NCBI GenBank assembly: GCA_004293485.1
Contig: RDYW01000037.1
Location: forward strand, 1-64,000
Source: Sphingobacteriales bacterium
GTDB taxonomy: Bacteria > Bacteroidota > Bacteroidia > Sphingobacteriales > Sphingobacteriaceae
Direction: 5' to 3'
DNA: 64,000 nucleotides
Shown piece by piece: positions 59,987 to 64,000 of the stretch. The notes beneath the pieces were generated by a model. The model ran no database searches, was not told where the DNA came from, and saw only the letters and a program-made list of their open reading frames with translations. How positions within the stretch are numbered: the stretch's first letter is position 1; the number at the start of each line of letters is the position of its first letter. Position numbers and translations under genes: made by a program.

Positions 59987-62437
59987 ATGGCATTAACAGA
60001 ACTTTTAAAATACAATATGAAGTATAAAAACATAAGAGAAGAAGAGCTAAAAAATAAGGTTGGTGCCGATTGGTTTCCTGATTTTGATACTACAGAAATC
60101 ATCGGAAACATTGATTTTACTGTTCTACCAAAACAAGATAACCTGTTTGGGCGCATACCGCTGCTTTGGGCCGAAGCCAAAACCGGAGATTTTGATATTG
60201 CCGCAATGTTTGTACAACTTATTTTAACAATTGGTAAAGCCCGCACATTCGATAAAACCCTGCCACCTGCTTTTTTAGCCGCTTTCGATTTTAAAAAAAT
60301 TGCTTTTGTACCTTATATAAATATTCAAGATATTTTTTATTTGAACGATTTTAATTGGAATGTAACACCAAGTAACCACGATACTAAAGAGTTTAAACTC
60401 ATTCAAGAAAGAATTCAAACCATACTAAAGCAAAATACTTATGTTTATGATTATATAAATGACGAAAAAGACCTCATCACTTTTATTAAAAACAATATTG
60501 CCAATGCAACCAACACGAGCAAAATAAAAATCGACAAAAATAATTTTACACCCATTTATTTACGTTGGCTCGAAATTATAAAACCTATAATTGATGTAAA
60601 CTGGGATGAACTAAAAAAAGCAAATATATTTGATAACGATTTTTACCTAGCCGACCTTTTTGTTGACGACCGAGACACCCAAACCATTGATGATGATATT
60701 ACCATACGCGATAGTTTATTTGTAGTATATCAAAACCAAGGTTACACCATAGCAAAAGAAAACATTAAGCAAATGTTTGATGCTACCATAAAGTTAAAAA
60801 ATAAAGAAACCTATATCCAGTTTTGGAAACGCTACAAAAGGCCACCTTTAAAAGAATTTCAAGATTATATTATCGAACGTAGAGATTTACTAGTTCCGCA
60901 AGATATTAGAGAACGAAAAGGTGCTTTTTTTACCCCACGCCAATGGGTTGAACTTTCGCAAAAATACCTAACCGACTATTTAGGCCAAAACTGGCAAGAG
61001 GAATATTACATTTGGGATTGTGCCGCTGGTACAGGAAATTTACTTGCAGGCCTTACCAACAAGTACAACATTTACGCAAGCACATTAGACCAAGCCGATG
61101 TAAACGTAATGCATGAACGGATAGACCACGGAGCAAATCTTTTAAAAAACCACGTATTTCAGTTCGATTTTTTGAATGATGATTTTTCTATTCTTCCACA
61201 AAGTTTGCAAAACATCATTAACAACGAAGAAAAACGAAAAAAATTAGTGATTTATATTAATCCACCGTATGCGGAGACAAGTGGTTCACTTAAAACTACT
61301 GCTAAAAAAGGAGTTAATTTAAATAATGTTCACAAAAAGTATAGTGATTTTTTAAAAAGAGCAAACCACGAATTGTTTACACAATTCTTAGCAAGAGTTT
61401 ACATAGAAATTCCAGGTTGTATAATTGGTGAGTTTTCAAAAATTAAAACTTTACAAGGATCTCATTTTTTGGATTTTAGAAATAATTTTCTAGCAAAAAT
61501 TGAAAATATATTTCTTTGCCAAGCAGATACATTTGATAATGTTAAAGGTAAGTTTCCTATTGGTTTTAAAATTTGGAATACACATATCAAAGAAAAGTTT
61601 AAAAAATTTAATGCTGATATTTACAACGAAAAGGCAATATTTATTGGCAATAAAAATCTTTATTCATACGATAATGAAAAAGGCTTAATAAATCAATGGA
61701 TAAAAAATTATGATCATAACTCAAGAAATTTAAAAGTTGGAGAACTAAGTGTAGCTAGGAATGACATGCAAAATAAAGCACTTTGTTGGATTTCTCATAA
61801 AGCAGATAGACCATTAAATATAACGCTAAATACTTTAATTATAGATTGTATATTTTTAACTGTACAAAGTAGTATAAAAGCCACTTGGTTAAACGACCGT
61901 GACCAGTTTTTATATCCAAATGATGGTTGGCAAGAAGATTATGAATTTAAAAACGACTGTTTAACTTATGCATTATTTAGCGGTCAAAATCAAATTAAAA
62001 GTACCGAAGGTACCAACCACTGGATACCATTTACCGAATACGAAGTAAACGCCAAAGAAAAATTTGAAAGCCACTTTATGGCCGATTTTATAAAAGGGAA
62101 AATAACGCCCCAACAGTCAGAAAGCGATTTGTTTGTTTTTAGAGAACCTAAACCAAATTACCAAGTACCTATACTTTTTTCGGACGATGCAAAAGAAGTA
62201 TTTAATGCCGGGCTAGAACTATGGAAATATTACCACGCACAAAATGAGGTAAATGTAAACGCTAGTTTGTACGATATTAGAGAATATTTCCAAGGCAGAA
62301 ACGATAAAGGCAGAATGAATACCAAAAGCAAAAACCCAAAATATACCGAACTAATAAGTGAATTAAGAAACAAACTAAACCTATTGGCCGACAAATTAAA
62401 ACCCAAAATATACAAGTATGAGTTTCTGAAAGAATAA
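59987..62437 (+). CDS. Single-chain restriction-modification protein (type IIG-like N6-adenine methyltransferase with PD-(D/E)xK domain)
   Basis: 816 residues. A candidate nuclease motif lies at the N-terminus: Asp43 in NIDFTV and E63-A-K65 (LLWAEAKTG), a D-x19-ExK spacing. The helical middle leads to RERKGAFFTPRQWVELS (about 309-324), typical of type I/IIG methylases. Methylase motif I is WDCAAGTGNL (about 343-352) and the catalytic motif IV is NPPY (425-428), of the gamma N6-adenine class. The C-terminal 540-816 region is probably target recognition. No separate specificity or endonuclease gene is nearby. It interrupts the miaB to sigma-54-activator order and looks acquired. Confidence 0.82.
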   Translation: MALTELLKYNMKYKNIREEELKNKVGADWFPDFDTTEIIGNIDFTVLPKQDNLFGRIPLLWAEAKTGDFDIAAMFVQLILTIGKARTFDKTLPPAFLAAFDFKKIAFVPYINIQDIFYLNDFNWNVTPSNHDTKEFKLIQERIQTILKQNTYVYDYINDEKDLITFIKNNIANATNTSKIKIDKNNFTPIYLRWLEIIKPIIDVNWDELKKANIFDNDFYLADLFVDDRDTQTIDDDITIRDSLFVVYQNQGYTIAKENIKQMFDATIKLKNKETYIQFWKRYKRPPLKEFQDYIIERRDLLVPQDIRERKGAFFTPRQWVELSQKYLTDYLGQNWQEEYYIWDCAAGTGNLLAGLTNKYNIYASTLDQADVNVMHERIDHGANLLKNHVFQFDFLNDDFSILPQSLQNIINNEEKRKKLVIYINPPYAETSGSLKTTAKKGVNLNNVHKKYSDFLKRANHELFTQFLARVYIEIPGCIIGEFSKIKTLQGSHFLDFRNNFLAKIENIFLCQADTFDNVKGKFPIGFKIWNTHIKEKFKKFNADIYNEKAIFIGNKNLYSYDNEKGLINQWIKNYDHNSRNLKVGELSVARNDMQNKALCWISHKADRPLNITLNTLIIDCIFLTVQSSIKATWLNDRDQFLYPNDGWQEDYEFKNDCLTYALFSGQNQIKSTEGTNHWIPFTEYEVNAKEKFESHFMADFIKGKITPQQSESDLFVFREPKPNYQVPILFSDDAKEVFNAGLELWKYYHAQNEVNVNASLYDIREYFQGRNDKGRMNTKSKNPKYTELISELRNKLNLLADKLKPKIYKYEFLKE

Positions 62438-62477
62438 AGCTGGTAGCATATAAGCTTAAACCCATGCTGGTTTTTCA

Positions 62478-62533
62478 AACCACTAAAACTAACCACTAAC
62501 AATTCCCTACTAACCACTAACCACTACCAACTA
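62478..62533 (+). repeat. Low-complexity ACTAACCACTA repeats upstream of the sigma-54 activator
   Basis: Imperfect iterations of ACTAACCACTA / CCACTAAC across about 55 bases end 10 bases before ATG 62543. Similar CTTACTACTAACCACTTACC sequence recurs at 63851-63875, beyond the 3' end of the same gene. Confidence 0.7.
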
Positions 62534-62542
62534 AAAAAAAAA

Positions 62543-63790
62543 ATGACCGCACAAGAAATAAAACAACGCTTTGGTATCATTGGCAGTTCGCCTTTATTAA
62601 ACCGAGCCATTGATATTGCTAGGCAAGTTGCCCCCACCGATATTACGGTTTTAATTACAGGCGAAAGTGGCTCTGGCAAAGAAGTTTTTTCGCACATTAT
62701 ACACCAAATGAGTGCCCGCAAACACGGCCCATTTATAGCCGTAAACTGTGGTGCCATACCCGAAGGAACTATTGACTCGGAACTTTTTGGCCACGAAAAA
62801 GGCTCGTTTACAGGCGCACACGAAGCCCGAAAAGGATATTTTGAAGTTGTAAATGGCGGCACTATTTTTTTAGATGAAGTAGGCGAACTGCCTTTGGGTA
62901 CACAAGCTCGCTTGCTGCGGGTGCTAGAAATGGGCGAATACATACGTGTAGGCTCATCCAAAGTACAAAAAACCGATTGTAGGGTTGTTGCTGCCACCAA
63001 TGTAGAAATGTTTGAAGCCGTAAGGGCAGGTAAATTTAGGGAAGATTTGTATTACCGCTTAAACACGGTGCCGCTAAAAATTCCGCCCCTGCGAGATAGA
63101 AAAGAAGATATACACCTGTTGTTCAGGAAATTTGTAGCCGATTTTTCGGATAAATACCGCTCGCCCAATATTACCCTTGCCGAAGATGCGGTACGGGTTT
63201 TAACCAATTACGGCTGGCCTGGAAACGTAAGGCAACTAAAAAATATTGCCGAGCAAATTGCCGTTTTAGAAAAAGATAGGAACATAACTGGCCAAACTTT
63301 AACCAACTATATCCCACACGATAACCCTGGCAATTTGCCCATGCGCCTTAACCCCAACCAAGCAAAAGACGATTTTAGCGAACGAGATATATTGTACAAA
63401 GTGCTGTTTGATATGAAAAAAGATATGAGCGACCTAAAACGATTGGTGGCCGATATCATCAAATCGGGCGATGATATTACAAATTATGCCGACCAAAATC
63501 CGCAAATTATAAATTCGCTTTACCGCGATATTGACCTAGGTAACGAACACGCAATCACCATACAACAGCCTCAAAATCAAATAAACAACCCAACACACAA
63601 TGATTACAGCCTAACACATGATAGCGAAGCGGAAGAGGTAGAAGAATCTTTATCGTTAATCGAAAAAGAAGCTGATATGATTAAAAAAGCACTTAAAAAA
63701 CACAAAGGAAAACGTAAAGCGGCATCCGAAGAGTTAGGCATATCCGAACGTACCCTGTACCGTAAAATTAAAGAACTTGATTTAGATTAA
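62543..63790 (+). CDS. Sigma-54-interacting transcriptional activator (AAA+/Fis-HTH)
   Basis: 415-residue enhancer-binding activator without a receiver or other sensory N-terminal domain: the AAA+ domain starts at residue 10. Walker A GESGSGKE (40-47), the sigma-54-contact loop in the GSFTGA form (87-92), Walker B IFLDE (108-112), and the C-terminal Fis-type helix-turn-helix (KHKGKRKAASEELGISERTLYRKIKEL). A charged linker (about 280-370) separates them. With no sensor domain its activity may depend on level or on a partner. In Bacteroidota it is commonly found beside lptE. Confidence 0.92.
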   Translation: MTAQEIKQRFGIIGSSPLLNRAIDIARQVAPTDITVLITGESGSGKEVFSHIIHQMSARKHGPFIAVNCGAIPEGTIDSELFGHEKGSFTGAHEARKGYFEVVNGGTIFLDEVGELPLGTQARLLRVLEMGEYIRVGSSKVQKTDCRVVAATNVEMFEAVRAGKFREDLYYRLNTVPLKIPPLRDRKEDIHLLFRKFVADFSDKYRSPNITLAEDAVRVLTNYGWPGNVRQLKNIAEQIAVLEKDRNITGQTLTNYIPHDNPGNLPMRLNPNQAKDDFSERDILYKVLFDMKKDMSDLKRLVADIIKSGDDITNYADQNPQIINSLYRDIDLGNEHAITIQQPQNQINNPTHNDYSLTHDSEAEEVEESLSLIEKEADMIKKALKKHKGKRKAASEELGISERTLYRKIKELDLD

Positions 63791-63791
63791 T

Positions 63792-64000
63792 ATGAAAATT
63801 CAAAATTCAAAATTCAAAATTCAAAACCCGAGTTTCGGTACTCGCTATTTACCACTTACTACTAACCACTTACCACTTTTTAATATTCACTTACTAACAA
63901 CTACTTACTTATTAATCAACCTACTAAGCGGTTGTTACTCGTTTACAGGCGGCTCTATTACACCAGGTATGAAAACCGTTTCGGTACCTCTTTTCGAAAA
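63792..64000 (+). CDS. lptE: LptE-family lipoprotein, N-terminal part (3' end outside window)
   Basis: Outer-membrane lipoprotein that works with LptD in LPS export. The lipobox LLSGC and the following YSFTGGSITPGMKTVSVPLFE are characteristic of Bacteroidota LptE. ATG 63792 is one base past the activator stop and is the only ATG before the lipobox; the frame is open throughout. The first codons are a perfect (AAAATTC)4 heptamer array and the next 20 derive from ACTACTAACCACTTACC-like low-complexity DNA, giving an odd polar n-region before LLTTTYLLINLLSGC. Family assignment is good; the start is uncertain. Confidence 0.75.
   Translation, partial: MKIQNSKFKIQNPSFGTRYLPLTTNHLPLFNIHLLTTTYLLINLLSGCYSFTGGSITPGMKTVSVPLFE
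63795..63822 (+). repeat. Perfect heptanucleotide repeat (AAAATTC)x4 at the lptE start codon
   Basis: Four exact copies of AAAATTC follow the ATG directly (63795-63822), then AAAAC. Seven bases are not a multiple of three, so loss or gain of one unit would shift the lptE frame. Confidence 0.9.

Follow-up and report, generated by a model that had tools for sequence, protein, structure and literature searches.

Does a heptanucleotide array that directly follows the start codon of an envelope gene make that gene a phase-variable switch, or has the array become an ordinary part of the coding sequence? The question arises at lptE in a 2.2-Mb Sphingobacteriales genome (G000), near the 3' end of the 64,000-nucleotide stretch of contig that was analysed (the window). 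For this locus the initial annotation had offered slippage-based switching, recruitment of invading repeats as a signal-peptide n-region, or a non-ATG start further on.

Anatomy of the lptE 5' end

The arrangement originally described, an ATG immediately before (AAAATTC)4 and then further heptamer repeats, all in frame with a lipoprotein, is confirmed: the array comprises 4.6 units, a TTACCAC-type tract follows it, and both lead into an intact LptE (Table 1). The upstream gene ends in a TAA at 63788-63790, leaving a one-base gap before the lptE ATG, and from this ATG the frame is open through both heptamer tracts to position 64376; as the end of the window interrupts lptE, the remainder of the gene was taken from the contig. 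The 194-residue product carries a PF04390 domain at residues 60-189 (68.7 bits against a cut-off of 23, E=9e-19) and a lipobox cysteine behind a signal peptide, and so belongs to LptE. No other in-frame ATG, GTG or TTG was found between ATG 63792 and the lipobox cysteine.

Table 1 Features of the lptE 5' end and its upstream neighbourhood in G000
Feature	Position	Strand	Remarks
AACCACT-type heptamer tract just 5' of activator gene start	62478..62534	+	Period-7 tract; indel differences between G000 and G011
Sigma-54-dependent activator gene, directly 5' of lptE	62543..63790	+	PF00158, PF25601, PF02954
lptE start codon ATG	63792..63794	+	One base 3' of upstream stop; same position is the start in array-free genus members
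(AAAATTC)4.6 array, codes KIQNSKFKIQN, signal-peptide n-region	63795..63826	+	Tandem Repeats Finder score 64, 100% matches
Degenerate TTACCAC-type heptamer tract, codes about LPLTTNHLPLFN, runs into h-region	63849..63878/63894	+	Tandem Repeats Finder, periods 7 and 21; perfect (TTACCAC)4 at same site in G013
Predicted lipoprotein signal peptide, 47 codons, ends LLSG before Cys	63792..63932	+	Open reading frame and lipobox; putatively cleaved in vivo
Mature LptE start, from lipobox Cys 63933-63935 (LSG|C)	63933..64000	+	Gene runs on to contig position 64376; PF04390 E=9e-19

The AAAATTC array behind the lptE ATG is far beyond chance. It is the top-scoring period-7 array that Tandem Repeats Finder reports in the window, and the lptE array is the single place in the G000 genome where three consecutive AAAATTC units occur. 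Within the family, 12 of 301 genomes contain such a run of three, and none contains the reversed control.

The unit is unusually accommodating as coding sequence. Seven is 1 modulo 3, so that AAAATTC translates to one peptide, the lysine-containing KIQNSKF, in all three frames of its strand, none of which contains a stop; on the opposite strand all frames contain TGA. The translations of TTACCAC and TTACTTC are likewise open and fairly apolar. The resulting h-region of the G000 signal peptide has a maximum 11-residue KD of 1.60 (2.17 in G013 and 1.93 in G012), weaker than the 2.75-2.94 of array-free relatives.

Ancestry of the start codon and comparison within the genus

lptE is present in all 18 genomes of the genus. 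Among array-free members, the N-terminus was readable in G001, G003, G004, G005, G008, G009 and G016; in these the gene starts right behind the stop of the same sigma-54-activator gene and encodes an ordinary signal peptide of 18-19 residues, for example MRKRGYILLFAMLMLLNA|C. Because array-free members begin lptE at the very junction used by array-bearing ones, comparison within the genus places ATG 63792 at the ancestral lptE start, with the repeats added in frame just behind it.

Array-bearing relatives present this addition in several forms. The 47-residue signal peptide of G011 (RDXP01000077) is identical to that of G000, that of G013 (JAAFJW010000081) has 40 residues encoded by (AAAAATC)n and a perfect (TTACCAC)4, and that of G012 (REAS01000071) has 28 residues encoded by AAAATTC AAAATTT AAAATTC AAAATTA AAAACCTGAGTTT. 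The G012 and G000 arrays align without gaps, differing by substitutions only, and the activator gene DNA of these two genomes is ~12% divergent. The lptE frame is intact in all four genomes, and no ATG, GTG or TTG was found behind the array in G000, G013 or G012. Across a phylum-wide sample of 395 Bacteroidota, an ATG followed by the array occurs in G000 alone.

The lptE array belongs to a general kind of dispersed heptameric repeat. Several heptamer arrays lie in the sampled contigs of G011 and G013 and few in those of G000, genome-wide density being judged on sampled contigs, of which the G011 set is enriched for array contigs. Array density is thus uneven across the lineage, since the ACCACTWACCACTWACCA pattern has nine matches in G011 and 0 in G000. 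Elsewhere in G011 (L132, L134, L135, L136, L139) there are ACTAACC/AACTAAC-type arrays, with ACTAACC on the coding strand before starts (folA-like, obgE-like) and GGTTAGT after gene ends on the same contigs, an orientation rule drawn from a handful of arrays.

The neighbourhood of lptE has features of its own. Over roughly 62.0-64.7 kb, G000 and G011 are 97-100% identical, compared with ~88% in the downstream flank, suggesting that the activator-lptE block (~62000-64000, on contig C4 to ~64700) was recently recombined or transferred. Within this block the AACCACT tract at 62478-62534 differs between the two genomes by 6- and 15-base indels, and the lptE array is unchanged. At the edge of the block lies the gene after lptE (contig C4 64370-65431, L006 4370-5431; no Pfam match), whose heptamer-rich part, made of AGCCCGC-type coding heptamers, differs between G000 and G011 by frame-keeping indels of 36 and 54 bases and contains other heptamers in G012 and G013. 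Further upstream, between miaB and the activator gene, a large gene without a Pfam match (window 59987-62437) has a methylase-like NPPY motif and the appearance of a type IIG restriction-modification enzyme; at ~61.25-62.0 kb its identity to the G011 counterpart (L137, G011:C10) falls to ~60-65%, with 95-100% on either side, as if the target-recognition part had been swapped.

Heptamer arrays in Nitrospirota and within genes

A protein search matched a Nitrospirota contig (JACRLN010000020, L111) on which leuS-like, lptE and holA-like genes stand in a row, and where lptE reads ATG(AAAATTC)4 and then TTACTTC-type repeats, its product being LptE by PF04390 (E=4e-11); this first match was biased, as the query contained the signal peptide. 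In the family of this genome lptE is present in 35 of 37 genomes, and N-termini were read for 30. In 15 of these 30 the signal-peptide DNA contains a run of period 7 that covers 16 bases or more, compared with 0 of 60 in two control windows of mature lptE and 2 of 30 in a window taken upstream of lptE. Period 7 stands out, each of the remaining periods between 4 and 11 giving 0-2 of 30. The units include AAAATTC, ACTTCTT, ACTTCTC, GCTTACT, CACTGTT and ACTTGTT, among others. The 15 array-bearing genomes are related and do not represent 15 independent events, but because the units differ in sequence, their variety shows, at the level of comparative sequence, several independent origins.

Three consecutive AAAATTC units occur in 20 of 295 Nitrospirota genomes (reversed control, 0). 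Among 59 distinct arrays, 41 lie within long open reading frames, 11 behind a start codon and 5 in intergenic DNA or short frames, 2 being unclear; 52 of the 59 are in frame inside genes. Each of the 11 start-codon arrays, some of which are related pairs, precedes a hydrophobic segment, in lptE, cbiM, Poly_export/Wza-like proteins, pilin-like leaders and others, the cbiN and pilin-like calls having been made by inspection. Against a background of 110 proteins, of which 53% pass at a hydrophobicity threshold of 1.6, 44% at 1.8 and 23-24% at 2.5, 9 of the 11 pass at 2.5.

Insertion also occurs deep within enzymes. Aligned with E. coli CarA, the CarA of one Nitrospirota locus (L189) has a clean 12-residue in-frame insertion exactly at ENSKFKIQDSKL, the array. 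In-frame KIQNSKF insertions were also seen in RibD-, MurE-, LeuS- and GuaA-like enzymes as well as CarA (L172, L183, L187, L189, L194, L205, L218, L234), and several Nitrospirota genomes share the LeuS-like and RibD-like sites. Of 14 arrays in Sphingobacteriaceae, 6 lie within genes, such as PrmC-like and ArgC-like ones; in an alignment of the ArgC insertion with a PDB homolog, the homolog has the longer loop.

These distributions suggest that heptamers free of stops in all three frames are a recurrent and convergent raw material for export signals, with signal peptides as the preferred landing zone within genes, a generalization we hold to be somewhat better than an even bet. Its reach, put forward with the same measured confidence, would take in lptE, both in Sphingobacteriales and in roughly half the members of one Nitrospirota family, as well as cbiM, Wza-like proteins and pilin-like leaders. 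The repeated origin of signal peptides from heptamers is here read from comparative sequence.

Competing readings of the lptE array

As a contingency locus, lptE would be toggled or tuned in a subpopulation by slippage of AAAATTC. Its geometry is suitable: seven is not divisible by three, the array stands right behind the sole ATG, lptE genes of two phyla have heptamer arrays at their starts, and gain or loss of a heptamer breaks the frame, as had been predicted. With 1 to 8 AAAATTC units, the frame is kept by 1, 4 and 7 only, 2, 3, 5, 6 or 8 units leading to truncation, and a change of one or two units either way leaves a product of 19-39 residues. A hypermutable array should, however, generate off alleles, and in each of the 18 array-bearing lptE genes found, from two phyla, the array is preceded by a start codon in frame with the gene. 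The unit count, which the initial annotation had proposed comparing across strains, is four in G000, G011 and G012, an absence of variation seen in few genomes and to which the G000-G011 pair alone lends little power, given the near-identity of the block. In addition, the array is short at 4.6 units beside a known heptamer contingency locus such as hmw1A, and AAAATTC arrays are also found within CarA and other housekeeping enzymes. A cell without LptE should grow poorly, given what is established for E. coli, and this likewise speaks against switching. The proposed slippage-based switching at the lptE array is accordingly not borne out, and we regard it as highly unlikely.

Two further readings would leave the array without a coding role. 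Translation might begin at a non-ATG codon past the array, for example at the ATT before HLLTTTYLLINLLSGC, the array being an untranslated leader, and the downstream part alone does resemble a normal short lipoprotein signal peptide. The position of the ATG is, however, conserved as the genus start; G013 and G012, which lack an ATG, GTG or TTG after the array, are both open from the ATG; and an untranslated leader needs no open, in-frame array, yet the array is open and in frame in four genomes, so that this late start, also raised by the initial annotation, appears quite unlikely. Alternatively, the array could be a DNA- or RNA-level regulatory element, such as the binding site of a translational regulator, with its coding incidental. 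Arrays do hug gene starts in G011 (L135, L136) and in Beggiatoaceae, where a translational role has been proposed (PMC4679880), but the unit differs at one site among close relatives (AAAATTC, AAAAATC), and such a change argues against a binding site, which should keep its sequence. Nitrospirota lptE genes moreover use several different units and many arrays lie deep within genes, and we give this possibility scarcely any credence.

We conclude that the lptE signal peptide is very probably a stable, in-frame recruitment of heptamer repeats and no on/off switch. The presence of other heptamers in relatives and the recurrence in Nitrospirota bear out the suggestion that repeats invaded the 5' end and were recruited as an n-region, and the recruited repeats extend past the n-region toward the h-region. 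lptE would then be a normal, constitutively in-frame gene whose signal peptide was rebuilt from heptanucleotide tandem repeats. Heptamer arrays, probably built by slippage, are dispersed in the lineage and often crowded against gene starts. In the proposed course of events, one that landed at the activator-lptE junction, with its one-base spacer, could be accommodated only within the frame of lptE. Since KIQNSKF is stop-free and the TTACCAC reading fairly apolar, a tolerable n-region and the stretch leading into the h-region of a cleaved lipoprotein signal peptide could both have come from AAAATTC and TTACCAC, the frame presumably being maintained since by selection on LptE. In vivo this long signal peptide is presumably both used and cleaved. 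The intergenic heptamer arrays that abut gene starts in G011 favor recruitment; against it count an h-region weaker than in array-free relatives, a length of 47 residues, long for a lipoprotein signal peptide, and the restriction of the ATG-plus-array form to a single genome in the phylum-wide sample.

Signal peptides are very divergent and the origin of new ones is seldom visible, whereas here the raw material, 7-base repeats, can be read in the DNA. Related genomes carry array-free, degenerate and fresh forms next to one another, so that signal-peptide origin and turnover become directly testable. The locus also counsels caution, as an envelope gene with a non-triplet 5' coding repeat is not necessarily phase-variable.

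Relation to known repeat systems

In the open-access literature, without subscription journals, we found no description of a signal peptide built from tandem repeats; nor did we find, in open-access literature, any on the peptide NSKFKIQ and similar ones or an earlier report of the wider lptE/Nitrospirota result. Rickettsia palindromic elements are small dispersed repeats inserted in frame at permissive positions of housekeeping genes. The arrays described here resemble them in their in-frame insertion into housekeeping genes, as in CarA, and differ in being tandem heptamers of varying unit rather than one longer palindromic element.

Several bacteria have an excess of heptameric repeats (PMC4692102). 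The TAACTGA arrays of Beggiatoaceae, Cyanobacteria and Bacteroidetes lie mostly just 5' of start codons and at times in open reading frames close to protein termini, and strains differ by 7-base indels (PMC4679880). Like these TAACTGA repeats and the cyanobacterial STRR, the present arrays have 7-base units in few copies, are dispersed, often stand beside start codons and in some cases lie in open reading frames near protein ends. They differ from them in unit sequence and in that the array here is coding sequence for the signal peptide of a conserved gene; most Nitrospirota AAAATTC arrays are, moreover, within genes rather than intergenic, unlike the TAACTGA repeats. The hmw1A contingency locus of Haemophilus influenzae, with (ATCTTTC)n of 13-24 units in the constructs studied (PMC8262952), shares with lptE a heptanucleotide array on the 5' side of an envelope gene, but the hmw1A arrays lie in the promoter and vary, whereas the lptE array is coding, has 4.6 units and is unvarying in the genomes compared.
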